DNA of 64,000 nucleotides from Salibacterium qingdaonense (lineage in GTDB: Bacteria > Bacillota > Bacilli > Bacillales > Marinococcaceae). The position numbers were made by a program, and so were the translations under genes. Positions 1-60,080 of this stretch are shown here, one piece after another. Below the pieces are notes generated by a model, which saw nothing but the letters and a program-made list of their open reading frames with translations, searched no databases and was not told where the DNA came from. The DNA lies in the NCBI RefSeq assembly GCF_900114715.1, contig NZ_FOTY01000006.1, forward strand, positions 1 to 64,000, in the 5' to 3' direction. Positions within the stretch are counted from its first letter, which is position 1. The number at the start of each line of letters is the position of its first letter.

Positions 1-237
1 ATCACCGCGGGATTCTTCTATCCAGTCAAAATCATTTTTTCCCTGAGAGAGAAGACCGAGATAGCTGTACACGACATCGCCGTGGGAAATCGCGGCCGAC
101 GATGTTAAGCCGGGCATGGATAAGGAATGGAGACGTTTATGTAAGTTCAAGGATTGAAGAAGTTCCCCTATCAAGAGAAGTCCACTGGCAGATATAATAT
201 AATTATCCGTTAATTGGATATCAAATCGACGTTTCAT
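1..237 (-). CDS. IS1380-family transposase, N-terminal part, runs off the window
   Basis: The reading frame is open from ATG 235-237 to the left edge, giving 79 residues. A GGAAGGTG ribosome-binding site lies just upstream. The protein begins MKRRFDIQLTDN and contains GLLLIGELL, then ISHGDVVYSYLGLLSQG and a following DFDWIEE. That order (GL-LIG-LL, then SHGD/SDVV, then GL--LGK-DFD) is the usual start of Firmicutes IS1380-type DDE transposases, which cut and paste their element. The catalytic residues would lie outside the window, so intactness cannot be judged. The family call rests on recognising this N-terminal pattern. Confidence 0.68.
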   Translation of the reverse strand, partial: MKRRFDIQLTDNYIISASGLLLIGELLQSLNLHKRLHSLSMPGLTSSAAISHGDVVYSYLGLLSQGKNDFDWIEESRGD

Positions 238-289
238 TTTTTCACCTTCCGGGTGCATTCATCCAATAAGATGAATAGGATCTTATCCC

Positions 290-433
290 CTATTTTATCA
301 AGGTTTTGAAGGGTATGTCGAAAGATATCATTACGGATTCAGGAGGAGATATAGTAGTAGACTCAACTAAGAATCTATAATCATACTCACTTTCTTTCAT
401 ATCCAGAATCTTAAAGTTTGATAGATTAATCAT
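290..433 (-). pseudogene. N-terminal fragment of a transposase, probably ISL3 family
   Basis: A 47-codon frame starts at ATG 431-433 and ends at TAG 290-292. The first ~30 residues (MINLSNFKILDMKESEYDYR, then FLVESTT-SPP) look like the start of ISL3-family transposases, in which a CPxCG zinc motif should follow. Here the expected cysteines are absent and the frame runs into unrelated sequence. It appears to be cut off by the left end of the IS1380-type element, somewhere near 300-340. The family assignment is from a short stretch and is tentative. Confidence 0.42.
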
Positions 434-502
434 ATTGGTTAACGTTTTATACTATCCTTTGCAAAATATCGGTTCTTTGTTAAAACCTGTTTTAAAATCC
501 TA

Positions 503-925
503 TTACCTTCTTTTAATAATAAGAGCACCTATCCCTACAATCCAAATATAAGCAAAGAAAAAGAGCCATAGATAAAGAATTGAAATCGACTCATTTCCTA
601 AAAGTGTGAAAACTGCTAAAGCCACAAATAAAATAGCTAAGGAAATATGAGATGTATATGCAAAAAGACGGAAAACATTGTGGATGACTCGTTCATCTGC
701 TTCGGGCAAATTATCTCTTTTGTGTTTCTGTTTAATCACCTGAATTACTGTCAAAATGATAGTTGCTACCAAACCACCTGTAAGCACTTCATACGGAAAT
801 TCACCTTGAAAAATATAAGCAAGAAATGAACCCAGAACAGCACCAATAAAAGTACAAGTAATAATAAAGTATGGTTTCCACTTTTCTAAAATCTTTCCCC
901 ATTTTTTTCTGTCCTTTACACTCAT
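503..925 (-). CDS. Small membrane protein partnered with an XRE regulator
   Basis: This 140-residue protein is not assigned to a named gene. It has four hydrophobic segments (about residues 18-38, 44-62, 88-108 and 113-135) and a short cytoplasmic loop with LPEADERVIHNVFRL in the middle. That DER motif between two membrane pairs is typical of small DUF2178-like proteins that sit beside Cro/C1-type regulators. Its ATG overlaps the stop of the upstream HTH gene (ATGA at 922-925), so the two are translationally coupled and co-transcribed. Function is unknown. The region is visibly AT-rich compared with the core genes, consistent with accessory DNA. Confidence 0.7.
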   Translation of the reverse strand: MSVKDRKKWGKILEKWKPYFIITCTFIGAVLGSFLAYIFQGEFPYEVLTGGLVATIILTVIQVIKQKHKRDNLPEADERVIHNVFRLFAYTSHISLAILFVALAVFTLLGNESISILYLWLFFFAYIWIVGIGALIIKRR

Positions 926-1131
926 TTGTCATCCTCCTCTAAAATAAATATTTCATTTATTGGCATATCAAAATATGCTATTAATTTTAATGCCAACTCA
1001 AGACTGGGATTATACTTATTTTTTTCAATTGCATTTATAGTTTGACGTGTAACTTGTAGATCTTCAGCCATTTTAACTTGAGTTATACCTTTTTTTTGGC
1101 GGATTTCTCGAATATGGTTAATTACCTTCAT
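922..1131 (-). CDS. Small XRE-family (Cro/C1) HTH regulator
   Basis: This 69-residue protein is almost entirely one helix-turn-helix domain (about residues 5-60): IREIRQKKGITQVKMAEDL, the recognition segment VTRQTINAIEKNKYNPSLE, then LALKLIAYFDMPINEIF. It belongs to the YozG-like class of minimal regulators. A strong GGAGGGG ribosome-binding site precedes ATG 1129-1131. It heads a two-gene operon with the membrane protein at 503-925. Two GTAAAG-N4-CTTTAC dyads sit on its promoter, so autorepression is the likely mode of control (inferred). Confidence 0.88.
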   Translation of the reverse strand: MKVINHIREIRQKKGITQVKMAEDLQVTRQTINAIEKNKYNPSLELALKLIAYFDMPINEIFILEEDDK

Positions 1132-1152
1132 TAATCACCCCTCCAAATCAAA

Positions 1153-1212
1153 GTAAAGATATCTTTACACATACAATAACAAAAAACCGATCTAATGTAA
1201 AGCAGTCTTTAC
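1153..1212. promoter_or_regulatory. Two dyad operators flanking the XRE promoter
   Basis: GTAAAGATATCTTTAC (1153-1168, a perfect 16-bp palindrome) and GTAAAGCAGTCTTTAC (1197-1212) share the form GTAAAG-N4-CTTTAC. Their centres are 44 bp apart, close to four helical turns. The upstream copy overlaps the -35 element and the downstream copy covers the expected transcription start. This geometry suits cooperative autorepression by the adjacent HTH protein. The binding protein is inferred. Confidence 0.7.
1173..1201 (-). promoter_or_regulatory. Promoter of the XRE-membrane protein operon
   Basis: On the minus strand, -35 TTTACA (1196-1201) and -10 TATTGT (1173-1178) are separated by exactly 17 bp. 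Transcription would start near 1166, about 35 nt before the HTH gene. Confidence 0.6.
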
Positions 1213-1232
1213 AGTGGGTCGGTATTATTTCT

Positions 1233-1301
1233 ACACGATAATCCGATTTATGATTTCGTAGCTATTATACTTTTTAACTGGTATTCCACACGATAATCCG
1301 A
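1233..1301. repeat. Direct repeat pair ACACGATAATCCGA
   Basis: The 14-mer ACACGATAATCCGA occurs at 1233-1246 and again at 1288-1301, a 55-bp period. The second copy abuts the point where TnpB-like coding similarity begins. It may mark an element end, an excision scar or a local duplication. Confidence 0.55.
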
Positions 1302-1862
1302 ATACCCGATTATTTAAACTACTACATTGAAGACGACGAAATTGAAAAGTTTCGGAGGCAGATGGAAAGCAGAAAAAAAGCGATGCAGAAGCAGGGGAAA
1401 TATGCTGGCAGCGGACGTGTCGGACACGGTACTAAAACACGAGTTGACCCACTTAAAGTCATTCGAGATAAAATAGCCAATTTCCGGGAAACCAAAAACC
1501 ATCAGTATTCCCGCTACGTCGTGGACATGGCTGAAAAGCACGAATGTGCCACCATTCAAATGGAAGAACTTAAGGGGATTCATCAGGATGATGCTTTCTT
1601 AAAAAGATGGTCCTATCATGACCTGCAGGAAAAAATCACATACAAAGCGGAGGAGAAAGGCATTCAGGTTTTAAAGATCGATCCCCAAAAGACTTCGCAG
1701 CGTTGTCATCAGTGTGGTAATATAGACAGCGACAATAGAAAAGAACAGGCAACTTTTCTGTGTACCTCATGTGGGATGGAAACGAATGCGGACTTCAATG
1801 CAGCTAAAAACATTGCAATACCAAGTATTGAACAAATCATACAAACCGAGATGAACAGTTAA
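1302..1862 (+). pseudogene. tnpB: TnpB (IS200/IS605-type RNA-guided nuclease), C-terminal remnant
   Basis: The frame is open from about 1278 and shows TnpB similarity from about 1302; the first ATG is at 1362 (166 residues to the stop). Visible are the middle RuvC motif with its glutamate (CATIQMEELKGI), the zinc ribbon with two CxxC pairs (CHQCG and CTSCG) and the final RuvC motif NADFNAAKNI with its aspartate. The N-terminal recognition lobe and the first RuvC aspartate (the usual GIDxG) are missing. The protein is therefore about 40% of full length (usually 370-400 residues) and should not cut DNA. No tnpA is nearby. Two of three catalytic residues are intact, so loss looks like truncation rather than evolution of a nuclease-dead repressor. 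Confidence 0.82.
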
Positions 1863-2219
1863 ATTTATTTGGGCGCTTTCTCGTCCATAAAACGAGAAGT
1901 ACCGTCCATAGTGGCGGCAACACTCATGAAGGTAGCCTATCATCAAAGTTGGGCTGAAATCTCAGTCACAAAAACCGACTGGGGAACCCTCACACTACAT
2001 AATTGGTAGATTCAAAACGGTCGTCGACCTTTAGTAGCGTAAAAACCCCAGGGGATCGACGACAGCAAGAACCCTTGAATCACGGGACTTGAATAGAAAA
2101 GATGGTATTAACCTATCAATCTTCGAACACATTGAAGTCCTGTCCTATCGGCTTTTAATGGGGTTTTAATCTTACCTTAGAGGGTTTGAAACGGATGCAC
2201 CGATGAAGTCACCACGCCC
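1863..2219 (+). other. Structured non-coding flank of tnpB, possible relic of the guide-RNA (omega RNA) and right end
   Basis: No gene is seen in these 357 bases. They are rich in inverted repeats: GTCGTCGA at about 2021-2028 pairs with TCGACGAC at about 2056-2063, TTTCTCGT pairs with ACGAGAAG around 1877-1902, and GGGCTGAAATCTCAGTC can fold near 1951-1967. In TnpB elements the guide RNA is transcribed from the 3' end of tnpB through the right end, in this orientation. Its identity here is an inference from position and structure only. Confidence 0.35.
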
Positions 2220-2405
2220 TTGATGGACTGTTTTGATCTTCCCTTTAAGTCGATTAAATATAATACTAACGAAAAAAGTAAGGATACAATAATTGAAGCA
2301 CTCAGGCATAGGGTTAAAGAGTTGGAAAAAGCAAACAAAGAATTAAAAGAGGAAAACAAAGACCTTATTGGAAAATTATACGAAAACTATAATTCAAACA
2401 ATTGA
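2220..2405 (+). pseudogene. Coiled-coil fragment, possibly the C-terminus of a TnpC/DUF6262-type transposon protein
   Basis: A 61-codon frame (TTG 2220 or ATG 2223) encodes a charged helix from about residue 20: KSKDTIIEALRHRVKELEKA, then NKELKEENKDLIGKLYENYN. This is a regular heptad coiled coil and resembles the C-terminal helix of Tn554 TnpC-like (DUF6262) proteins, where an N-terminal domain would be expected. No convincing ribosome-binding site or N-terminal domain precedes it. It is followed directly by a terminator, so it looks like the true 3' end of a lost gene. The family assignment is tentative. Confidence 0.35.
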
Positions 2406-2406
2406 T

Positions 2407-2441
2407 AAAAAAGGCGGTCGTTTTATTGATCGCCTTTTTTA
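2407..2441 (+). terminator. Rho-independent terminator
   Basis: An A-run, GGCGGTC, an 8-nt loop, GATCGCC and TTTTTT form a hairpin with one G-U pair. It can work in both directions and lies immediately after the coiled-coil remnant. Confidence 0.75.
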
Positions 2442-2608
2442 ACTCTTGCATCCGTTAATGTTATGTGAAAATAAAGTTGTTCAAATTGATATTTGCTCCA
2501 CAACCGCGCCTGATGTTTGAATAGCCTCTTTCTAATTTTTGCTGATATTCTAGAACAAGGACAACGCCTTAGCATGATGCTATTTCACATTTCTATACTT
2601 GAAGAGCG

Positions 2609-3403
2609 TTAAAAGATAGTCGGTACCAGCCCACCATCCATACGGATTGGGGACCCTTTAAATGCGGATGCATAAGGGCTGCAGACAAATGTAGTTAGCC
2701 TTCCTATTTCAGTAGGTCTAATAAATCTTTGTATCTCAGATTGAGGTAGGTTTGCAGTCATAAATTCCTTCTCTTTCTCTGAAAAAGTCATATCTTTATT
2801 ATCGTACATACCCTCAATGATTTGATGCACATTTTCAGAGAGTGTTGGTCCTGGCATGATCGTATTGACCGTAACATCTTTTCCTATTGTTAATTTAGAT
2901 AAGCTTTTTGACAATGATAATAGCATTGATTTTGTCATACAATACTGAGGCATTTGTCCTGAAGGCATCACTGCTTCTTCACTCGCAATAAAGATAATCC
3001 GGCCGAACTCATTGTTCAACATTTTAGGTAAATAAAATTTAGATAAACTATTTGCAGCAAGAACATTGGTACGGAAGTATTTTTCCCATACTTCATCGTC
3101 AACGTCCTCATATTGCATGATTTCATAAATACCCATATTGTTAACTAAAATATCAATATTGGGATACTTTTCGAATAAAATTTTTCGTTGTTCAACATCC
3201 ACAATATCGGCTGCAGCATTTTGAGGAGAGGTTGTAGGGAAATCTGATTTAATTTCATTTACAATTCGCTCTACCTGTTCATAATTTCGGCCATTAATAA
3301 GGACATTAACACCTTCCTTTGCAAGCTCAATAGCAATTACTTTACCTATACCTTTTGTTGAGCCTGTAACTAAAGCTGTTTTGTTGGTTAGTCCCATGTC
3401 CAT
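2609..3403 (-). CDS. SDR-family NAD(P)-dependent oxidoreductase
   Basis: This is a 264-residue short-chain dehydrogenase/reductase. The nucleotide-binding glycine motif TGSTKGIG lies near residues 13-20, the NNMG variant of the NNAG motif near 87, the catalytic serine in IFIASEEA and the catalytic pair as YCMTK. The substrate cannot be read from sequence. I start at ATG 3401-3403 because AAGGAG lies 9 nt upstream; an in-frame ATG further up would add 12 residues without a good site. It lies 43 bp after an AraC-type regulator on the same strand, so they may form a two-gene unit. It is more AT-rich than its neighbour, so the two may differ in origin. Confidence 0.88.
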   Translation of the reverse strand: MDMGLTNKTALVTGSTKGIGKVIAIELAKEGVNVLINGRNYEQVERIVNEIKSDFPTTSPQNAAADIVDVEQRKILFEKYPNIDILVNNMGIYEIMQYEDVDDEVWEKYFRTNVLAANSLSKFYLPKMLNNEFGRIIFIASEEAVMPSGQMPQYCMTKSMLLSLSKSLSKLTIGKDVTVNTIMPGPTLSENVHQIIEGMYDNKDMTFSEKEKEFMTANLPQSEIQRFIRPTEIGRLTTFVCSPYASAFKGSPIRMDGGLVPTIF

Positions 3404-3446
3404 AATACATTTCTCCTTTTCATTTATAGTTAAAAACAAGGTCAGT

Positions 3447-4454
3447 TTATCGAGTTGTACCTAAATGTTCAGTACGCCAATTTGAGGGCGTATCTCCCTC
3501 CCAAAGCCGAAAGGCCCGATAGAACGAGTTTTGATTTTCATAACCAATCAGGAAGGCAACTTCGCGAATATCGAGCGAGGGATCTGCTAAGTACTCTCGT
3601 TCCTGTTCTTGTCGGACTTGTGTTAACAGATGTTTAAAGCTCGTCCCTTCGTCATGAAGACGGCGCTGCAAGGTGCGATTGCTCATCCCTAACTCGCCTG
3701 CGACAGTCTGGATGTTGGAACGCCCTCCTGGCAGGCTGCGTTTCATGATCCACTTGACCATCTTGGTAATTGAATTGCCAGGTTGCTGCTCATCTGCCGA
3801 TTGGTCCAATACGGGGGTCAGAATTTCCAGCAACTCTGCGTTGTACGAGACAAAGGGGCGGTCCAGGTCACTTCTATGGAGCGTCAATTTGTCACGACTT
3901 CCACCGATTTGGACACGGCATCCGAAGTAAGTTTCAAGCGACTGAGCGTCGCCCATTAAATGCGAAAATTCAACGGACTTCGCCGTCAATGGCTGACCAG
4001 TTCCCCGGCGTCCTAACTCTAAAAGAAACGCAAGCGTAATACCAATTAACATCGACGGACCCGGTTGCTCTGTATACAACCATCCCAGTTCGATAGTACA
4101 TTCATCGCCTTCCTCTGTGATAAGTAAGCTTTCAGGGGGGCACAGTCGTTTATACCGAGCCATGCGTGTTAGTGCGTCGCGGTAGTCACGAGCGTGGTAA
4201 GCTGCTAAAACAGTTGGTGGAAAATGAACTGTTTCGTAGCCGGCCGTTAGCTTGATGATTCCTTTAGCTGTGTCACCTATGATATCGGAATACGCCTGCC
4301 AAATTGAGAAATATTGGGGGGTGGTAACAACTGGTTCATTAATGATAGTGAGTGGAAGTCCTGCTTTTCGGGCTACTTCATGGGGGGCAATCCCTAATTG
4401 GCGTAATCCCGTCCAAAATCCTGCCGGGAATTTAATACGAGTATAAGACGTCAT
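3447..4454 (-). CDS. AraC-family transcriptional regulator
   Basis: This 335-residue protein has an N-terminal effector domain (about residues 20-200) of the Arabinose_bd type common in OruR-like regulators, and a C-terminal AraC DNA-binding domain with two HTH units. The first is NIQTVAGELGMSNRTLQRRL (about residues 248-267). The second includes IREVAFLIGYENQNSFYRAF, with the family's A-x2-x-GY-x5-F-RAF pattern. It probably activates the SDR gene just downstream; this is inferred from position. Its base composition is close to the core genome and unlike the AT-rich genes to its left. Confidence 0.9.
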   Translation of the reverse strand: MTSYTRIKFPAGFWTGLRQLGIAPHEVARKAGLPLTIINEPVVTTPQYFSIWQAYSDIIGDTAKGIIKLTAGYETVHFPPTVLAAYHARDYRDALTRMARYKRLCPPESLLITEEGDECTIELGWLYTEQPGPSMLIGITLAFLLELGRRGTGQPLTAKSVEFSHLMGDAQSLETYFGCRVQIGGSRDKLTLHRSDLDRPFVSYNAELLEILTPVLDQSADEQQPGNSITKMVKWIMKRSLPGGRSNIQTVAGELGMSNRTLQRRLHDEGTSFKHLLTQVRQEQEREYLADPSLDIREVAFLIGYENQNSFYRAFRLWEGDTPSNWRTEHLGTTR

Positions 4455-4778
4455 TTATAAACCCCCTTAGCCATCTATAACTTGACCTGTGTCTACCCTG
4501 TTGGCAGGATAGTTATCATATTACCAATCCAATGCTGTTTTGTAACTAGCAAAAGACGACATACAACTAATTGTTTACGTCAAATTAATCCTGTTGATGT
4601 GATTGAAAATGTATTAGCGTTTTTTTGTTATTCCTATTCAATAGGGAGTACATTCTGAGTTATCATAAAACGACCTGCTCTCCTTCTTCCACAAACATTG
4701 AGCCGATTCTAGCGCAAACCTTATGCGATAACTGCGTCCGATGATTGAAGACTTGAAATCGAGATAATCCGGCCTGGA
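4455..4778. other. Gene-free intergenic region upstream of the AraC-type gene
   Basis: I see no credible gene in these 324 bases. The part nearest the regulator is AT-rich and presumably carries its promoter, but no confident -35/-10 pair stands out. The far end, near 4760-4778, contains GATAATCCG, also part of the direct repeat at 1233-1301. Confidence 0.5.
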
Positions 4779-4853
4779 TGGGTTACACTTAGTTGGACAG
4801 ATTCATTAAGGTCATATAGACTTAGATCAAATAAACGCTGAGGGGAATCAATA

Positions 4854-5137
4854 GGACCAGACGAACAAGAAGAAGCTTCACGAAAGAATGTAAAGAACAA
4901 ATCGTTCAGCTACACGCTTTAGGCAAACCTAGATCCGAAATTATCAAAGAATATGAGCTGACGCCTTCTGCCTTTGATAAGTGGGTTAGCCAATCCCGGA
5001 CCAGTGGGTCCTTTGAAGAGAAAGACAACCGTACTCCTGAGCAGGAAGAACTGACTCGACTAAGGAAAGAAAACCAAAAGCTTGCCATGGAGAATGATAT
5101 TTTAAAGCAGGCCGCGCTGATCATGGGACGAAAGTAG
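4854..5137 (+). pseudogene. IS3-family orfA (HTH transposase subunit), broken
   Basis: Read with one corrected base this encodes about 95 residues starting TRRTRRSFTKE, then an HTH (IIKEYELTPSAFDKW) and a leucine-zipper end ENQKLAMENDILKQA. Three lesions are visible. The expected start ATG at 4854 reads AGG, 7 nt after a good GAGGGG site, and no other start lies in frame. A base is missing at about 4919-4920 (CTT-AGG where CTTTAGG is needed), giving a stop. A conserved FKEQ phenylalanine codon reads TGT. OrfA supplies end recognition and the frame needed for OrfAB fusion. Confidence 0.82.
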
Positions 5138-5139
5138 AT

Positions 5140-5963
5140 GTGATCCGGAACAACCGCCACAAATACTCGGTATCAGCAATGTGCGACGTCCTACAAATAC
5201 CAAGAAGTACGTATTATTATGAAGCTCAAATCCGTGATGACCAGGATGAAGAATTGGCTGCACGGATCGTCGAAATCTTTAAAAACAGCCGGAATATTTA
5301 TGGGCAGAGAAAGATAAAAAAAGAACTAGAAAAGCTGGGATGGACAGTCTCTCGCCGTCGTATTGGAAGAATCATGAAGGAACAAGGTCTTGTGTCAAAA
5401 TATACGGTTGCTCCATACAAACCGACGAGAATGCCCAGTAACGAATCAGAAGTCGGAAATACATTAAATCGAGCGTTTAATCAAGACCAGGAATTGAAAG
5501 TGATTGGGAGCGATTTAACCTATGTTCGAGTACAGCAGAAGTGGCATTACATCTGCGTTTTAGTAGATTTATATAATCGCGAGATTATCGGCTACAGCGC
5601 AGGCCCTCATAAAAGTGCTGCATTAGTTCAACGTGTCTTCGCATCGGTGAAATACAACCTTCATCGTCTTGAAGTATTTCATACTGATAGAGGTAGTGAG
5701 TTTAAAATCAACTCATCGACCAGGCCCTCGAAACCTTTGGCATTGAACGCTCATTGAGTGAAAAAGGAACGCCCTACGACAACGCCGTAGCAGAAGCTAC
5801 GTTTAAGACCATCAAAACGGAGTTTGTCCACGGTTCTAGCTTCCCTAACCAATACGAACTTGACCTCGAACTATTTGATTATGTTCATTGGTTCAATCCT
5901 ATTCGCATTCATGGATCACTAGATTATTTAACACCAGCTGAATACAAGTCTAAGCACCTTTAA
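5140..5963 (+). pseudogene. IS3-family orfB (DDE transposase), frameshifted
   Basis: Two overlapping frames (5140-5757 and 5754-5963) together make one rve-type transposase of about 274 residues. An N-terminal HTH_21-like part (IYGQRKIKKELEKLGWTVSR) precedes the DDE core: Asp in SDLTYV, Asp in HTDRGSEF and Glu in NAVAEATFKTIK. After HTDRGSEF the frame is lost because AAAA stands where AAAAA is needed (about 5702-5706), which separates the last catalytic glutamate from the first two aspartates. The ending HGSLDYLTPAEY is typical of the family. Confidence 0.88.
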
Positions 5964-6108
5964 ATATTTGTTCAGTTTAGTGTTGATATACCACGTATCA
6001 AAAGGCATTTGAATAACAATCATCTACTTCACCCGTAGTGACGGCTTCACTGATACTATAACTTTATTCAATTAAATGGCCCGATTGTTTAATTATATTG
6101 TATCAGAA

Positions 6109-6140
6109 TTATTAGATAAATTTTAAACTTTATCTAATAA
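6109..6140. repeat. Perfect 12-bp inverted repeat with 8-nt loop
   Basis: TTATTAGATAAA (6109-6120) and TTTATCTAATAA (6129-6140) are exact reverse complements. No U-tract follows on either strand, so it is not a typical terminator. It lies in a gene-free AT-rich stretch (5994-6220) between the IS3 element and the ssrA terminator. It could be an operator or a relic of a mobile element. Confidence 0.6.
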
Positions 6141-6220
6141 GTGTTGTATTAAAAACGAACATTTATTGTAGAGCCGATTTTTTGCATTTTAAATATGTTT
6201 ATTACATTCGGTTTGAAAAC

Positions 6221-6260
6221 GAAAAAAGCATGAGCATTCCAACAGGAACACTTATGCTTC
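6221..6260 (-). terminator. Terminator of ssrA
   Basis: On the minus strand AAGCATAAGTGTTCC, a 4-nt loop and GGAATGCTCATGCTT form a 15-bp stem with G-U pairs, followed by TTTTTT. It begins about 20 nt beyond the CCA end of tmRNA. Confidence 0.82.
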
Positions 6261-6281
6261 ACTTCGGTTCATTATTATGTA

Positions 6282-6646
6282 TGGTGGAGACGGTGGGAAT
6301 CGAACCCACGTCCAGAGATATCGCTGACTGAGCTTCTACGAGCGTAGTCACTATATTATGATTCGCCGCTGCTTTGGCTTAGTGACAAGCCGCTGCAGGG
6401 CTAGTCTGATTGGTCTCTTCTGCCAGCCTCAGACGGTGGCTGGACAGCGTAGCCCACTATTAGTGAGACCCCGTATCACTCCACATGGGCGATGGAGAGC
6501 GGGATCCGCAGAAAACTGCTTATGCAGCTACTGCGAGGTTTTCTTCTTGTTTGCCAGTTATTATTGGCGTGGGCCTTTTTCGAGGCCTGCCCAGCTCGGC
6601 TCGCAACTCAGCCTCGACCTATCTCTGTCGAAGCCGTGTCGTCCCC
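6282..6646 (-). ncRNA. ssrA: tmRNA (ssrA)
   Basis: The 365-nt gene has both halves of the tRNA-like domain: 5' GGGGACGACACGGCTTCGAC at 6646 downward, and 3' GGACGTGGGTTCGATTCCCA (T arm) running to an encoded CCA at 6282-6284. The tag frame lies at 6520-6555: after TAACT, GGC is the resume codon and the peptide is GKQEENLAVAA followed by TAA. With the tRNA-borne alanine this makes a 12-residue degradation tag ending in the protease-recognised AA. tmRNA with SmpB rescues ribosomes stalled on broken mRNA. smpB and rnr lie just upstream, as in Bacillus. Confidence 0.97.
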
Positions 6647-6691
6647 ATTTGTAGAAAAAGGAGATACATTCAAATCCCCTTTGGACATTTA

Positions 6692-6719
6692 ATTATAACA
6701 CATACACACGCAGATGCAA
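6692..6719 (-). promoter_or_regulatory. Promoter of ssrA
   Basis: Minus-strand -35 TTGCAT (6714-6719) and -10 TATAAT (6692-6697) are 16 bp apart, placed just after the smpB stop codon. Transcripts would begin near 6685, leaving a ~40-nt 5' leader to be removed by RNase P. Confidence 0.75.
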
Positions 6720-6723
6720 GGGA

Positions 6724-7197
6724 TTATTCCCCTTTCATCTGGCGACGTACCGCACGGTCCATTTCACGTTTGGCGTCTTTTTCCTTAAGAGCCTGGCGTT
6801 TGTCGTATTTCTTCTTCCCTCTGGCAACACCAATTAATACTTTAGCTACACCGCGCTTAATGTACACTTTCAGCGGTATAACCGAGTATCCGGGTTCCTG
6901 GCTTTTGCCGATCAGCTTGTTGATTTCCCGGCGGTGCAGCAGCAGTTTCCGCGTCCGGAGCGGATCGTGGTTGAACTGGTTCCCCTGTTCATACGGACTG
7001 ATATGCATGTTATGGAGAAACATTTCGCCGTTATCCACTTTTGCGAAGCTGTCCTTAATATTGACCCGTCCGGCGCGGATCGCTTTAATCTCTGTTCCTT
7101 TCAGCGCCAGTCCGGCTTCGAACGTTTCTTCGATAAAAAAGTCATGACTCGCTTTGCGGTTCTGCGCGAGCACTCTTCCTTCCGTTTTTGTCGCCAT
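6724..7197 (-). CDS. smpB: SsrA-binding protein SmpB
   Basis: This 157-residue protein is full length for SmpB. It has the start [20 protein letters not shown], the signature [21 protein letters not shown] and the C-terminal basic tail ([20 protein letters not shown]) that enters the empty mRNA channel of the stalled ribosome. SmpB binds the tRNA-like part of tmRNA and delivers it with EF-Tu. It lies between rnr and ssrA and all three are on the same strand, the usual Bacillus arrangement. Confidence 0.97.
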
Positions 7198-7318
7198 CTC
7201 CCGTTCACCTACTTTACTTCATCATTTCTATATCGTAGCAAAACAGGATAAAAACCGTCAACACAGGACCGCTCCCACCCTCTCCGGATGAGATACGTGT
7301 CCTGCGGCAGAAAAAGGG

Positions 7319-9625
7319 TTATTTTTTCTTTTTGTTCCCTTTATTTTTCGGGGCATTCTGGTAAAAAGCTTTATTGTCACCGCCGTTATTTTTACCTTTC
7401 TGCCTTCCTTTCTTTGCTTTCGGGTTATCTTTTTTGGAACGGTCGCCCCCTTCAATAACGGTCGGGCTGTCTTTTTTCTTCCGCTTTTTCGGCGGTTTCA
7501 TCCCGACGATTTCAAAATCGATATCAGCTTCGTCGAGATTGACCTGCAGCACCCGGACCTCAACCTGGTCGCCGATGCGGTAGATATTCCCGGTCCGTTC
7601 CCCGATGAGCGCGTACTGTTTTTCGTCGTAATGATAGTAGTCATCGGTCAGGTAACTGATATGCACCATGCCCTCGATGGTGTTCTCGAGTTCGACGAAC
7701 AAGCCGAAGTTGGCGGCCCCGCTGATAAATCCGGTGAATTCTTCGCCTACTTTGTCTTTCATATACTGCGCTTTCTTCATATCGTCGACTTCCCTTTCGG
7801 CGTCCACGGCGCGGCGTTCCATGTCCGAGGAGTGCTTGGCGATGTCGGGAAGTTTCTCTCTCCAGGCTTCTTTCGTCTTTCCACCGAGATTTTTATTCAC
7901 GAGGTATTCCCGGATCAGACGGTGGACAATCAGGTCCGGATAACGGCGGATCGGGGACGTAAAGTGTGTATAGAAGTCCGAAGCGAGCCCGAAGTGGCCG
8001 AGGTTATCCGCATCATAGCGGGCCTGCTGCATCGAGCGAAGCAGCACCGTATTAATCACTGCTTCTTCCGGTTCTCCTTTTACTTGATCGAGCACTTTCT
8101 GCATGGCGCTTGGGTGAATGGTGTTGGCGGTACCTTTCACGACGTAGCCGAAGTTGGTCACAAACTCGAGGAATCTCTCGAGTTTCTCCGAATCCGGATC
8201 CTCGTGGACGCGGTAGATAAACGGCACGTTCATCCAGTGGAAGTGCTCAGCCACCGTTTCGTTGGCCGCGAGCATAAACTCTTCAATCAACCGTTCAGCA
8301 ACAGAGCGATCGATCAGTTCCACGTCCTGCGGTGTTCCGTCCTCGTCGACTTTCACTTCCGCTTCTTTGAAGTCAAAATCGATGGCGCCGCGTGCGAACC
8401 GTTTTTCCCTTAGAATTGCTGCAAGCTCTTCCATCTGTTCAAAAAGCGGCACGAGGCTGCTGTATTTTTCTCTTGTTTCTTCGTCCTGCTGTTCCAGAAT
8501 CAGGCGTACGTCGCTGTACGTCATGCGTTCACTCGTGCGGATGACACTCTCGAAAATGTCATGATCCACGACCTCGCCTTTTTCGTTGATTTCCATTTCA
8601 CATGACAAGGTGAGGCGGTCGACTCTCGGGTTCAAACTGCATATGCCGTTGGAGAGCCGGTGGGGAATCATCGGAATGACACGGTCAACAAGATACACAC
8701 TCGTCGCGCGCTCGTAAGCTTCTGTATCAATCGGAGAACCCTGCTCCACGTAATAGCTTACGTCAGCAATGTGGACGCCGAGTTTGTAGTTGCCATTATC
8801 GAGTTTCTTGACCTGTACCGCGTCGTCCAGGTCTTTCGCGTCGGCTCCGTCAATGGTGACGATCGTTTCGTCCCGCAGGTCCCGGCGCTGTGCTATTTCT
8901 TCGGATTTAATTTCATCAGCCGTGTTATTAGCATGCTCCAGCGCTTCTTCCGGAAAGTCACCGGGAAGTCCGTGTTTATGGATAATCGTCAGAATATCAA
9001 CACCGGGGTCATTTTTATGCCCGATGATGTTTACGACTTTTCCTTCTGCACTGAAAAGGCCTTCCGGGTATTTCGAAATTTCCACGACTACTTTATGGCC
9101 GTCCACAGCACCATTTTCAGCGTCCTGTGGAATGAAGATATCATTGTTGATATGTTTATCGTCCACTTCCACAAAACCAAAAGAGCGGTTATCGATGTAC
9201 GTTCCCACCACTTTGCTGACGCCGCGCTCGAGAATACGGACGATGGCGCCTTCGGGTTTGGAACCCGAGGATTTCTGCTGCACACGCACGAGCACGGTAT
9301 CTTTATTCATGGCACCGTTCAGTTCATGCGCCGGCACAAACACATCCGCTTCTTCCTTGTTTTCAGGCAGAATAAAGGCAAAGCCTCGTTGATGGCTCTG
9401 TACTTCTCCTTTCAGCAGGTTCATTTTTTCCGGAATGCCGTAACGGTTGCTGCGGGTACGTACGATATCGCCGGATTCTTCCATTTCATTCAGGGCTTTC
9501 ATCAGTTGTTTCGTTGCTTCGCCGTCTGTCATCTCAAAAGCTTCCTGTATTTCTTCGACCGACATCGGTTTGACGGCTTCTTCTTTCATATATTGCAGTA
9601 ATTGCTGCTTCTCTTGCTCATCCAT
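7319..9625 (-). CDS. rnr: Ribonuclease R
   Basis: A processive 3'-5' exoribonuclease of 768 residues that degrades structured RNA and works with tmRNA-SmpB on non-stop mRNAs. Visible in order: an N-terminal winged helix (~20-65), two cold-shock domains (~70-200), the RNB catalytic domain with the metal-binding cluster [12 protein letters not shown] (~259-270), an S1 domain (~625-705) and a lysine-rich tail (PPKKRKKKD to the end). I start at ATG 9623-9625 (MDEQEKQQ) because AAAGGAG is 9 nt upstream; the longer frame starting at 9673 has no good site. It overlaps no neighbour and is followed by smpB after 121 bp. Confidence 0.96.
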
Positions 9626-56972: not shown

Positions 56973-58091
56973 ATGCAGCGGATTCTTACAGGCATGTATG
57001 GTCTCCTGATTGTCCTGCTTCTGGCATCCTGCATGTCAGAAGCGGATACAGATGAAAACGGGGACAGCGCCGCCCCCTCTGAAGAAGAACCGGATGACAC
57101 CGAAGATACAGAACCGGAAAAGGAACCTGAGAAGGTCATGCCGGCGGGGGACGTTCTGCAGCAGTCTATTGATAAGATGAATGATATAGAAAGCTACACC
57201 ATTTCAACGAATATGAACCAGCACCTGGAACTCGGCGGGGAGCAGACACTCGAAAACCGGTACCGCTCCAATACGCTTGTCAACCTTGATCCGGTGCGGT
57301 ATCACGAATCATCCACCATCGAAAAAAACCAGACGACCGCGGAGGAGACAAATAACAGCTTCGTGGAGCTGGAGCGTTATTTTACGGACCGGGGTTTTTA
57401 TATGTTTGACTCCTCGGAAAGCCGCTGGGTGCAATTTCCGGAACAATTCAACGAAGACTTCAAGTCTTTTGACAAATCCTATGAGAACCCGGGCCGCATT
57501 CTTGAAATGATTGAAGCCTACAGCAGTAACATCCATATAATAGAAGGAAACCGTCATTATCAGCTCACATTCAGCGGCGGGGAAGACCAGACCCAGGAAA
57601 TCGCCCTTGAAATGATCGGCATGGTTAACACCGGCTTCTCTTCTTCGATGGAAGACATGATGTACATGGCGGAGCTGGAGTCGCTGACATTCCAGCTTCA
57701 GATTGACAAGGAAACGTTCTACCCGAAAAAACTGAAAATGAACCTCGACATGAACATGAATAACGCAGAAGGAGAGCCGGATGCCTCGGATCACCTTGTT
57801 GTCGCCCGTTATTCTGATTTCAATGAAACAGAACGTGTCGAGATTCCGGCCGACGTCCTGAACGTCGCCGAGGGCATGGAACTGGATGAATTCACCGGAT
57901 TTGAGCAGATGGAGGAATTTGATTCGGTAGACGGGATGGAAATGGAACAAATTTACGGAGACGACACCACAGAATCCCAGGATGATCCCGCGCTTGACTT
58001 CGATCTGAGTGAACACCTGAACGATGGCAGCGGCGGTGGAGAAAGGGAAGATACGAACGAGCAGCCAGCATCCGGAGATTCCTCCGGGTAG
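56973..58091 (+). CDS. Predicted lipoprotein of DUF6612-like type
   Basis: A 372-residue exported protein with a lipobox LLASC (cysteine ~21) after a hydrophobic signal, a strongly acidic linker (about 24-55), and a folded domain with alternating strands and helices resembling the LolA/LppX-like lipid-binding fold: VLQQSIDKMNDIESYTISTN near residue 60, then ALEMIGMVNTGFSSSMEDMM and KETFYPKKLKMNLDMNMNN. The C-terminus is acidic and Gly/Ser-rich. GGAGGAGG precedes the ATG. It is oriented against all neighbours, diverging from the dehydrogenase gene with 197 bp between. Function unknown. Confidence 0.82.
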   Translation: MQRILTGMYGLLIVLLLASCMSEADTDENGDSAAPSEEEPDDTEDTEPEKEPEKVMPAGDVLQQSIDKMNDIESYTISTNMNQHLELGGEQTLENRYRSNTLVNLDPVRYHESSTIEKNQTTAEETNNSFVELERYFTDRGFYMFDSSESRWVQFPEQFNEDFKSFDKSYENPGRILEMIEAYSSNIHIIEGNRHYQLTFSGGEDQTQEIALEMIGMVNTGFSSSMEDMMYMAELESLTFQLQIDKETFYPKKLKMNLDMNMNNAEGEPDASDHLVVARYSDFNETERVEIPADVLNVAEGMELDEFTGFEQMEEFDSVDGMEMEQIYGDDTTESQDDPALDFDLSEHLNDGSGGGEREDTNEQPASGDSSG

Positions 58092-58127
58092 GAAGCTGTC
58101 CTTTTAAAAGGACGGCTTCTTTTTTTA
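58092..58127 (+). terminator. Terminator after the lipoprotein gene
   Basis: GAAGCTGTCCTTTT and AAAAGGACGGCTTC pair through 14 positions with one mismatch and are followed by seven T. Confidence 0.85.
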
Positions 58128-58160: not shown

Positions 58161-58762
58161 GTTTCTTGATCAATTTTCTGGATTTCTTGATCGATCCGAT
58201 GATTTCTCGATCGATTTCCGGCACGTGCGGGGATTTCTTGATCGTTTCTCCGGATTTCTCGATTGTTTCTCCACTATTATCCATCGATTCTCTACTTTTC
58301 TCTATGGATTCCGGTAAAAATGGTCCACGATGAGCCTCCAGCAGCGCTGAAAAGCGGGACGCTGCGTTTCTCGATCGCTTCTCCCGATTTCTTGATCGAT
58401 CCGATGATTTCTCGATCAATTTCCGGCACATGCGGGGATTTCTTGATCGTTTCTCCGGATTTCTCGATTGTTTCTCCACTTTTATCCATCGATTCTCTGC
58501 TTTTCTCTATAGATTCCGGTATAAATGGTCCACGATGAGCCTCCAGCCCCGCTGAAAACCACGGCGCTGCGTTTCTCGATCGATTCTCCCGATTTCTTGA
58601 TCGATCCGATGATTTCTCGATCGATTCCCGGCACGTGCGGGGATTTCTTGATCGTTTCTCCGGATTTCTCGATTGTTTCTCCGCTTTTATCCATCGATTC
58701 TCTGCTTTTCTCTATAGATTCCGGTAAAAATGGTCCACGATGATCCTCCAGCGTTGAAAGCC
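58161..58762. repeat. Three tandem copies of a 205-bp repeat
   Basis: Units start near 58161, 58366 and 58571; the marker TCGATCCGAT falls at 58191, 58396 and 58601, exactly 205 bp apart. Units differ at scattered single bases; the first is the most divergent and the third ends early. Each contains five copies of TTTCTYGATY plus related TTTCTCC blocks. Since 205 is not a multiple of 3, no single frame crosses all copies, so a repetitive protein is unlikely. No CRISPR-like spacer structure exists. The minus-strand start of the array lies inside the 3' end of the gene at 58712-59083. Confidence 0.93.
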
Positions 58763-59083
58763 GGGGAGGAAATCCATGGTCAGCGCTGACAGTTTCCATG
58801 TCGCAGAGTCCATATCAGGAATAGCGCGGGCTTCTCCCAATTTTTCGTGGAAAGCGTCCATCTCTGCGCCGCGGTCTGCTTTCTGCCCAAACAGATGCAT
58901 CAGCGTGACGTTACCTTCCGCCAGAGGCGTGAATCCGTCCAGCATCTGCTGCAGCAGACGATCTCCATTTTCGTCCAACCCTTCCCGGTAAAAATATGCG
59001 ACCGACGCAATACCTTCCTCGACCGTTTCCAGATAGCCGAGATACTGCTTGAGAAAATCCTGTTCTGCCTGATCGAGCAGCAT
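58712..59083 (-). CDS. Hypothetical protein next to fliT; its 3' end lies in the repeat array
   Basis: I do not recognise this 123-residue protein. It starts MLLDQAEQDFLKQYLGYLET and looks mainly helical, with no membrane segment or signal. The last ~10 codons (from about VDHFYRNL) are encoded inside the first minus-strand copy of the 205-bp repeat, so the present stop may be secondary. ATG 59081-59083 has a GGTGAGG only 3 nt upstream; the frame is open 17 codons further. A terminator lies between it and fliT, so it probably has its own weak expression. Its place suggests, but does not show, a flagellar link. Confidence 0.55.
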   Translation of the reverse strand: MLLDQAEQDFLKQYLGYLETVEEGIASVAYFYREGLDENGDRLLQQMLDGFTPLAEGNVTLMHLFGQKADRGAEMDAFHEKLGEARAIPDMDSATWKLSALTMDFLPGFQRWRIIVDHFYRNL

Positions 59084-59132
59084 ATGCCTCACCAACCCTT
59101 CTCTCGTTTTGAGAATAACACAACGATAATAC

Positions 59133-59160
59133 AAAAAAACAGCCGCACGAGGCGGCTGCC
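59133..59160 (-). terminator. Terminator after fliT
   Basis: CAGCCGC and GCGGCTG with a 5-nt loop form the stem; seven T follow on the minus strand. Confidence 0.85.
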
Positions 59161-59528: not shown

Positions 59529-60080
59529 TCAAGCCTGGCCTCCGCCGCCGAAGCGCTCCTGCCGGTCCTTCTTAATAACTTCTTTCCACGTATCACGGAA
59601 GTCAACGACAAGATCCCGCGCTTCCTGCAGCACATCACGATCGTTCTGGACGTTCGCGTCAATCAGCCGGCGGTGGATAAAGTCATAGAGACTGTACATG
59701 TTCGCGCCAACTTCCGTATCAGTCCGAAGCGTCACCATCAGCTCGCGGATAATATCCTGCGCCCGTTTAATGAAATTGTTTTTATCTTCAATCTGCTTGT
59801 CCTGCATCGCCTGATCCGCTTTATCAATAAACTTCACGCATCCGTTGTACAACAGCAGCGTCAAATCCCCGCTGGACGCGGTTTCGAGCGCATTCTGCTG
59901 ATACGGATTGGCCGCTGGTTTCTGCTGCGCGCCCGGCTTCACACTGCCGATTGCTGCGCCCCCGGAGGACGCCGATCCCGGCGTAAACGTCTGATTTGTA
60001 TTTTTCCCTGTCGATTTTCTATGGTCTTCCGCCTGTTTCATCGTCTGTTGGTAGGCCGTCTGTGCGTTTTGAAAGGACAT
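59529..60080 (-). CDS. fliS: FliS flagellin chaperone with N-terminal extension
   Basis: The FliS core begins at about residue 58 (NPYQQNALETASSGDLTLLL, then YNGCVKFIDKADQAM) and runs to ~175; it binds the C-terminus of flagellin and prevents early polymerisation. The protein is 183 residues, against about 130 normally. The extra ~57 N-terminal residues are low-complexity (TPGSASSGGAAIG) after MSFQNAQTAYQQT. FliS normally uses its N-terminal tyrosine-containing segment to cap the flagellin groove, so an extension here could alter control. A GGGGGAA site precedes the ATG and the sigma-D promoter fits this start. Confidence 0.9.
   Translation of the reverse strand: MSFQNAQTAYQQTMKQAEDHRKSTGKNTNQTFTPGSASSGGAAIGSVKPGAQQKPAANPYQQNALETASSGDLTLLLYNGCVKFIDKADQAMQDKQIEDKNNFIKRAQDIIRELMVTLRTDTEVGANMYSLYDFIHRRLIDANVQNDRDVLQEARDLVVDFRDTWKEVIKKDRQERFGGGGQA

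Follow-up and report, generated by a model that had tools for sequence, protein, structure and literature searches.

A helically phased seven-site repeat in Salibacterium, a candidate docking platform for a DNA-binding protein

Introduction

Several described systems share traits with an array of direct repeats in a 64,000-nucleotide stretch of the genome of the salt-loving bacterium Salibacterium qingdaonense (assembly GCF_900114715.1, contig NZ_FOTY01000006.1, positions 1 to 64,000; hereafter the window), and with the family of intergenic elements to which this array belongs. The SRS and KOPS sequences of SpoIIIE and FtsK are polar single octamers found throughout the chromosome. The STAR elements of staphylococci (PMC3532100) resemble the present elements: they are direct repeats interspersed in intergenic DNA, their copy number depends on the locus, the loci themselves are stable, and a function is suspected. 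They are built on a 14-bp GC-rich motif, T(G/A/T)TGTTG(G/T)GGCCC(C/A), with recurring sequences of at least 40 bp in between, whereas the Salibacterium elements, also interspersed direct repeats of variable copy number, are built on TTTCTC[G/T]ATYGATTCTCC. Helical phasing, a fixed core of seven sites, polarity relative to replication and a dialect between species belong to the Salibacterium element and are not part of that description of STAR.

BIME-2/REP sequences and strong gyrase sites are likewise intergenic and repeated, may act on topology, and include a gyrase motif with 10-11-bp periodicity over ~130 bp (PMC6379681). REPs are palindromes of alternating orientation, in contrast to the array in the window, which consists of direct repeats only, without hairpins or consensus base pairs. 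For the binding regions of the DNA-wrapping proteins RemA and LrpC/AsnC, octamers have been proposed to wrap the DNA (PMC8481266); as in such wrapping sites, the motifs found here share one face of a helix that is predicted to be curved. RemA sites are poorly conserved sequences upstream of promoters (PMC8481266), while the present elements lie at 3' ends of genes and have a well-conserved motif. Finally, the A-tract periodicity of prokaryotic genomes also involves helically phased T/A runs tied to intrinsic curvature, but is a diffuse genome-wide signal rather than a defined unit with a sequence motif (PMC3940949).

Results and discussion

The core holds seven sites on one face of the helix

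A preliminary description of the window, made from its letters, had reported three direct copies with an exact period of 205 bp, and a repeat search returned just these spacings (205 and 205). Copies 2 and 3 are 91% and 86% identical to copy 1 (Table 1), the copy number being that of the assembly. Tandem Repeats Finder gave the array a score of 1037 (period 205, 2.9 copies), which no other repeat of the window approaches. The seven TTTCT starts listed earlier for the middle copy (58367, 58388, 58408, 58439, 58450, 58460 and 58471) were all correct; an eighth at 58502, with an offset of 135 bp or 13 turns, had been overlooked.

Refinement of a position weight matrix on the family loci gave an 18-bp motif, TTTCTCGATCGATTCTCC (summary form TTTCTCGATYGATTCTCC), and seven such motifs at offsets 0, 21, 41, 72, 93, 114 and 135 (13 helical turns) make up a core of 153 bp. 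The steps follow each other in the order 21, 20, 31, 21, 21, (21) at nearly every locus, both in S. qingdaonense and in its sister species S. halotolerans. Counted over both species there are 56 steps of 20 bp, 183 of 21 and 56 of 31, with only three 1-bp departures (22 once, 32 twice). Grouped, the within-core spacings are 20-22 (240), 31-32 (58), 41-42 (8) and 53 (4), plus 9 and 11 once each, while spacings of at least 58 bp span a linker between cores. The variant arrangements with 41-42 and 53 bp correspond to whole helical turns too. This rigid geometry is found despite sequence divergence, the cores differing at ~40% of their variable positions. Between tandem copies, 1-bp length changes occur at 5 of 1,016 linker positions versus 1 of 2,067 core positions (two pairs of compensating 1-bp gaps in cores were treated as alignment artefacts), and one 42-bp deletion leaves the phase intact.

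In 40 aligned cores TT, GC and pyrimidines each have their strongest periodicity at 10.3-10.4 bp, where the signal is 7-9 times that of shuffled sequences. The helical phasing is not due to chance. The fixed spacings and this periodicity bear out the earlier view that the TTTCT tracts are helically phased, and the recurrent phased motif supports the suggestion of an array of putative binding sites. Bent DNA had been suggested as well. The predicted end-to-end/contour ratio was calculated with the Bolshoy wedge model, in which a phased-A-tract control behaved as expected. The ratio amounted to 0.829 for the cores. Shuffled letters gave 0.935, the same motifs at random spacing 0.925 and the remainder of the window 0.946, and 30 of the 40 cores fell under the fifth percentile of the background. 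In this model the cores are predicted to be curved, and only when their motifs are in phase.

A DNA-level element without RNA structure or coding signal

The cores have the features of a DNA element and not those of an RNA or a coding sequence. RNAalifold found no consensus pair in 41 cores, five single-core folds had z-scores from -1.03 to 0.09, Rfam returned only a chance match and no family, and local open reading frames had no Pfam match.

Rho-utilisation sites are unstructured pyrimidine-rich RNA with evenly spaced YC. A 3'-end feature of this kind, acting on the RNA level, would agree with cores that are unstructured, pyrimidine-rich on one strand and located at gene 3' ends, but we regard it as very improbable. 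In co-directional contexts the elements occur in both orientations relative to the genes (~3 with, 5 against; judged by eye), and an RNA would not need to fit the DNA helix with 13 turns in 135 bp.

The preliminary description had noted short frames that read as seven-residue repeats. A coding role finds no support because the 20- and 31-bp spacings shift the frame inside every core, and the periods of 194, 205, 214 and 226 bp are not multiples of three. That the cores are remnants of genes for such repeat peptides has a practically negligible likelihood. The 21-bp units are stop-free in most frames, which gives rise to short open frames (SGETIEK and similar); these are broken by the steps of 20 and 31 at every locus, the unit lengths are not divisible by three, and no protein family matches.

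The family is restricted to the genus

When the whole genome (3.52 Mb in total; the window lies on contig C25 of 163 kb) was searched by blastn with the window array, 36 matches on eight contigs were obtained. There are ~19 core loci in this genome and ~20 in that of S. halotolerans. A sequence-only covariance model, R1, was built from 41 cores and gave 55 and 30 matches in the two species, respectively. It had no match in the other two genomes of the genus (G001 and G002), nor a convincing one in 25 further genomes of the family, the few matches in other genera at E 0.004-0.009 being isolated and not arrays. Similarly, a two-motif pattern with up to 3 mismatches matched 94 times in S. qingdaonense, 33 times in S. 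halotolerans and 0 times in the remaining 395 genomes of the order that were searched, and the plasmids, phages and viral contigs searched held no match. As far as these searches reach, the element family is restricted to the genus. The counts rest on searches and on the genome read in stretches; orthologs and tandem copies are not independent, and the carrier species are two.

The search for motif clusters had been proposed as a check on the preliminary reading, which would have been refuted if the array recurred nowhere and homologous arrays were out of phase. The opposite was observed, as the same rigid spacing recurs at ~19 loci and in a second species, with the phase kept.

Loci are shared between species but differ in one base

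Thirteen of 14 clearly syntenic loci are occupied in both species, one of the 13 by a degenerate copy in S. halotolerans. Array length differs between the species at shared loci, as in the window, where S. qingdaonense has an array and S. halotolerans a single copy. The exception to shared occupancy is C32:56477-56776 of S. qingdaonense (L027, L096), where the spacer measures ~620 bp versus ~140 bp in the orthologous, empty spacer of S. halotolerans. A precise insertion at this place was considered and rejected, as the empty site (on S. halotolerans contig C37) lies within a larger non-matching stretch with no clean junction.

Most other motif positions agree closely between the two species, but base 6 differs: S. 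qingdaonense has G there in 81% of its motifs and T in 1%, and S. halotolerans has T in 77% and G in 8%. Among aligned orthologous sites at six loci, a G in the former is a T in the latter in 24 of 33 cases and the reverse occurs in 0, compared with 3.4% G to T in flanking DNA. Over the remaining variable positions similarity is higher between orthologous cores (0.619) than between non-orthologous ones (0.569; 3 of 720 permutations); therefore the cores stayed put, and base 6 changed in parallel. Restriction avoidance was rejected as a cause of this dialect, since CGATCG and comparable words have the same representation in the two genomes and are not avoided outside the elements. The motif word TTTCTCGAT does not exceed chance outside the arrays.

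The elements prefer convergent gene pairs and have a replication polarity

Placement was counted for loci with two flanking genes, the genes being called by a simple home-made finder based on codons. Convergent pairs flank 16 of 30 loci but account for 10 of the 146 other gene pairs (p = 1.6e-8); divergent pairs flank only one of the 30. Three contigs (C25, C21 and C31) that make up 7% of the S. qingdaonense genome hold 13 of its 19 loci. A good part of this cluster is probably located on one origin-proximal arm, because the ATP-synthase and tuaD neighbourhoods, when mapped by their orthologs, fall at 228 and 644 kb on contig 1 of G002, the contig that has dnaA at 32 kb.

Orientation was measured against an array-masked GC skew. 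The TTTCTC strand is opposite to the G-rich strand in 34 of 39 elements (17:2 and 17:3 in the two species), with a binomial p of 2.4e-6 for all elements, orthologs counted twice. The G-rich strand is usually the leading strand in Bacillota, and the two are equated here; in the window, genes cover 49 kb on the G-rich strand versus 2 kb on the other. A replication orientation is shared with SRS and KOPS, as is the word GAGAA with the Bacillus subtilis SRS, GAGAAGGG. However, a match to this system was rejected, for that octamer is not the repeated word: the motif continues as GAGAATCG and GAGAAATC, and occurs only in arrays.

A docking platform as a candidate function

The anatomy of the element is solid, and from it we infer a function. 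Taken together, the rigid spacing, the kept position and the coordinated one-base shift point to a trans-acting factor that recognises the DNA. As the most likely candidate, to which we would give somewhat less than an even chance, we propose that the core is a polar multi-site platform under selection, on which a sequence-specific DNA-binding protein docks or wraps the DNA. Such a protein or multimer would dock side by side on the seven co-facial sites and, by analogy with LrpC, RemA or gyrase on phased DNA, would bend or wrap it. Selection on the protein-DNA complex would keep the spacing from drifting, and motif base 6 would have moved between G and T, genome-wide and at most sites, when the preference of the protein changed. 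The likely purpose would be a replication-oriented architecture or topology of the local DNA where transcription units converge. Supercoils accumulate between converging genes. Both that the core is bound by protein and that it acts on local topology are steps that we infer beyond the anatomy, and a role in segregation or in the nucleoid is possible. Fairly unlikely is a further-reaching version, in which these polar, nucleosome-sized (~150 bp) sets of seven co-facial sites form a class of chromosome-architecture sites with a dedicated protein, whose specificity diverged between the sister species and moved the sites genome-wide by one base.

Several points weigh against a docking platform. 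G001 and G002 are without the family, and the orthologous spacer of G001 is empty, so the core is not generally essential. Wrapping alone predicts no replication polarity, short-tract gene conversion (homogenisation) could also yield the dialect, and the predicted curvature depends on the wedge parameters used. Moreover, the cores have no known binding protein, and no gene encoding the factor was found.

If a docking platform is the correct explanation, it would provide a natural case of a DNA-binding specificity and its genome-wide sites shifting together by one base, with orthologous sites in both species that allow the specificity shift to be compared. It would also provide a defined, nucleosome-sized wrapping element in Bacillota, oriented to replication and situated between converging genes. 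Even in a selfish element, a near-perfect helical geometry kept for so long would need explaining.

A strong gyrase-wrapping site like BIME-2, where converging transcription builds positive supercoils, is an improbable alternative to a dedicated protein. The Escherichia coli gyrase motif measures ~130 bp and has two arms with 10.75-bp GC periodicity around a centre, and BIME-2 elements are gyrase sites in intergenic DNA (PMC6379681). The core resembles it in having periodic arms of three and four sites around an irregular 31-bp step, with GC periodicity of 10.3-10.4 bp over 153 bp, thus including the 10-11-bp periodic arms over ~130 bp, and in its location between convergent genes. On the other hand, this step merely replaces one of 21 bp and is only ~10 bp over the normal, where an aperiodic centre of ~36 bp with the cleavage site is expected. 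Gyrase is furthermore thought to read shape, so that a precise motif, a one-base dialect and polarity would be unexpected.

A selfish repeat had been among the roles listed in the preliminary description. According to this explanation, which is on the unlikely side though of appreciable weight, the element is an old selfish or neutral interspersed repeat that spread before the species split, with no benefit to the host. An enzyme acting on the single-stranded lagging-strand template would give the orientation bias, the enzyme or gene conversion would keep copies similar, and the nearest enzyme candidates are Rpn-type recombination-promoting nucleases near several copies. The preference for promoter-free spacers, the tandem expansion, the orientation bias and the patchy presence in the genus all fit, and Rpn genes (TIGR01784) lie within ~150 bp of the elements at C21:26195 and C36:10863 in S. 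qingdaonense and are syntenic in S. halotolerans. Against it, there is little to indicate that copies have moved since the species separated (13 of 14 positions are common to both), the geometry has been kept in place throughout, and no terminal inverted repeats were seen. The idea is weakened by the positional conservation and the coordinated one-base shift, but it is kept as a rival to the docking platform.

An Rpn nuclease as partner of the element was rejected, as both Rpn genes and elements are abundant in the C21 and C36 regions and the association may be coincidental. It is weak because of this regional clustering, and may reflect a shared variable region only. In G001 and G002, the Rpn genes lack repeats of this kind alongside. 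E. coli RpnA has no sequence specificity (PMC5350276), which also counts against such a partner.

Rpn genes beside elements are present at L020:3657-4709 (S. qingdaonense C21:26156-27208) and L025:2780-3748, and in S. halotolerans at C41:229-1245 and C36:13312-14142; several Rpn fragments lie near the two syntenic Rpn-element places in both species. Inside one Rpn gene (L020:4494-4595) there is a 12-bp tandem repeat, GGCCATGCAGAG, in 7 copies, which matches the four-residue repeats described in Rpn C-terminal domains (PMC10327210).

The 205-bp period stems from duplication of a core and a gene tail

The non-core part of each unit in the window corresponds to the terminal codons of the convergent gene to the right of the array (Table 1). 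The living gene ends in FQRWRIIVDHFYRNL followed by its stop, and copies 1 and 2 keep relics of this tail. In the same spacer S. halotolerans has a single core (L016 6163-6367) and a neighbouring protein that ends in VDHFYRNQ, whereas the spacer in G001 is empty and the neighbouring protein ends in FVENMAAG. Because of the tail relics, the single core in S. halotolerans and the empty G001 spacer, the window array can be traced to a single core that was duplicated locally, in tandem, together with the neighbouring gene tail. The period of 205 bp has no functional meaning and is a by-product of that duplication; the coherent unit is the 153-bp core. Other arrays have unit lengths of 114, 153, 194/195, 214 and 226 bp, and are taken to consist of cores plus different neighbouring DNA, the detailed check being confined to the window array.

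Table 1. Features of the repeat array and its surroundings, in window coordinates
Feature	Position	Strand	Remarks
Tandem unit 1	58161..58365	+	205 bp; core and relic of the 3' end of the neighbouring gene
Tandem unit 2	58366..58570	+	205 bp
Tandem unit 3	58571..58775	+	205 bp; the minus-strand gene 58712-59134 has its living 3' end in the right part
Core, copy 1	58162..58314	+	Motif starts 58162, 58183, 58203, 58234, 58255, 58276, 58297
Core, copy 2	58367..58519	+	Motif starts 58367, 58388, 58408, 58439, 58460, 58481, 58502
Core, copy 3	58572..58724	+	Motif starts 58572, 58593, 58613, 58644, 58665, 58686, 58707
Gene-tail relic, copy 1	58302..58365	-	Reads ...FQRCWRLIVDHFYRNP, then stop
Gene-tail relic, copy 2	58507..58570	-	Reads ...FQRGWRLIVDHLYRNL, then stop
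Convergent gene right of array	58712..59134	-	140-aa protein, no Pfam family; TAG stop inside motif 7 of copy 3
Convergent gene left of array, DUF6612 protein	56973..58091	+	
Likely terminator of the DUF6612 gene	58092..58125	+	Palindrome then T run, directly before the array
fliS, marker of the adjoining flagellar cluster	59529..60080	-	

Other observations

Two stretches have an identity between the species well above that of ordinary orthologous DNA (~82-90%). Positions 2522-4696 of the window (2.2 kb) are 96.6% identical to C22:86419-88606 of S. halotolerans and are probably a recently moved element; the copy in S. halotolerans adjoins the element locus C22:88816-89032. L025:5043-5501 is 98.9% identical to L031:6543-7001 of S. 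halotolerans, which exceeds by far what is usual between the two species, and is likely mobile DNA. At the end of the window formed by positions 1-8000, the G+C content of 0.417 is below that of the rest and the GC skew is weaker, which suggests foreign DNA.
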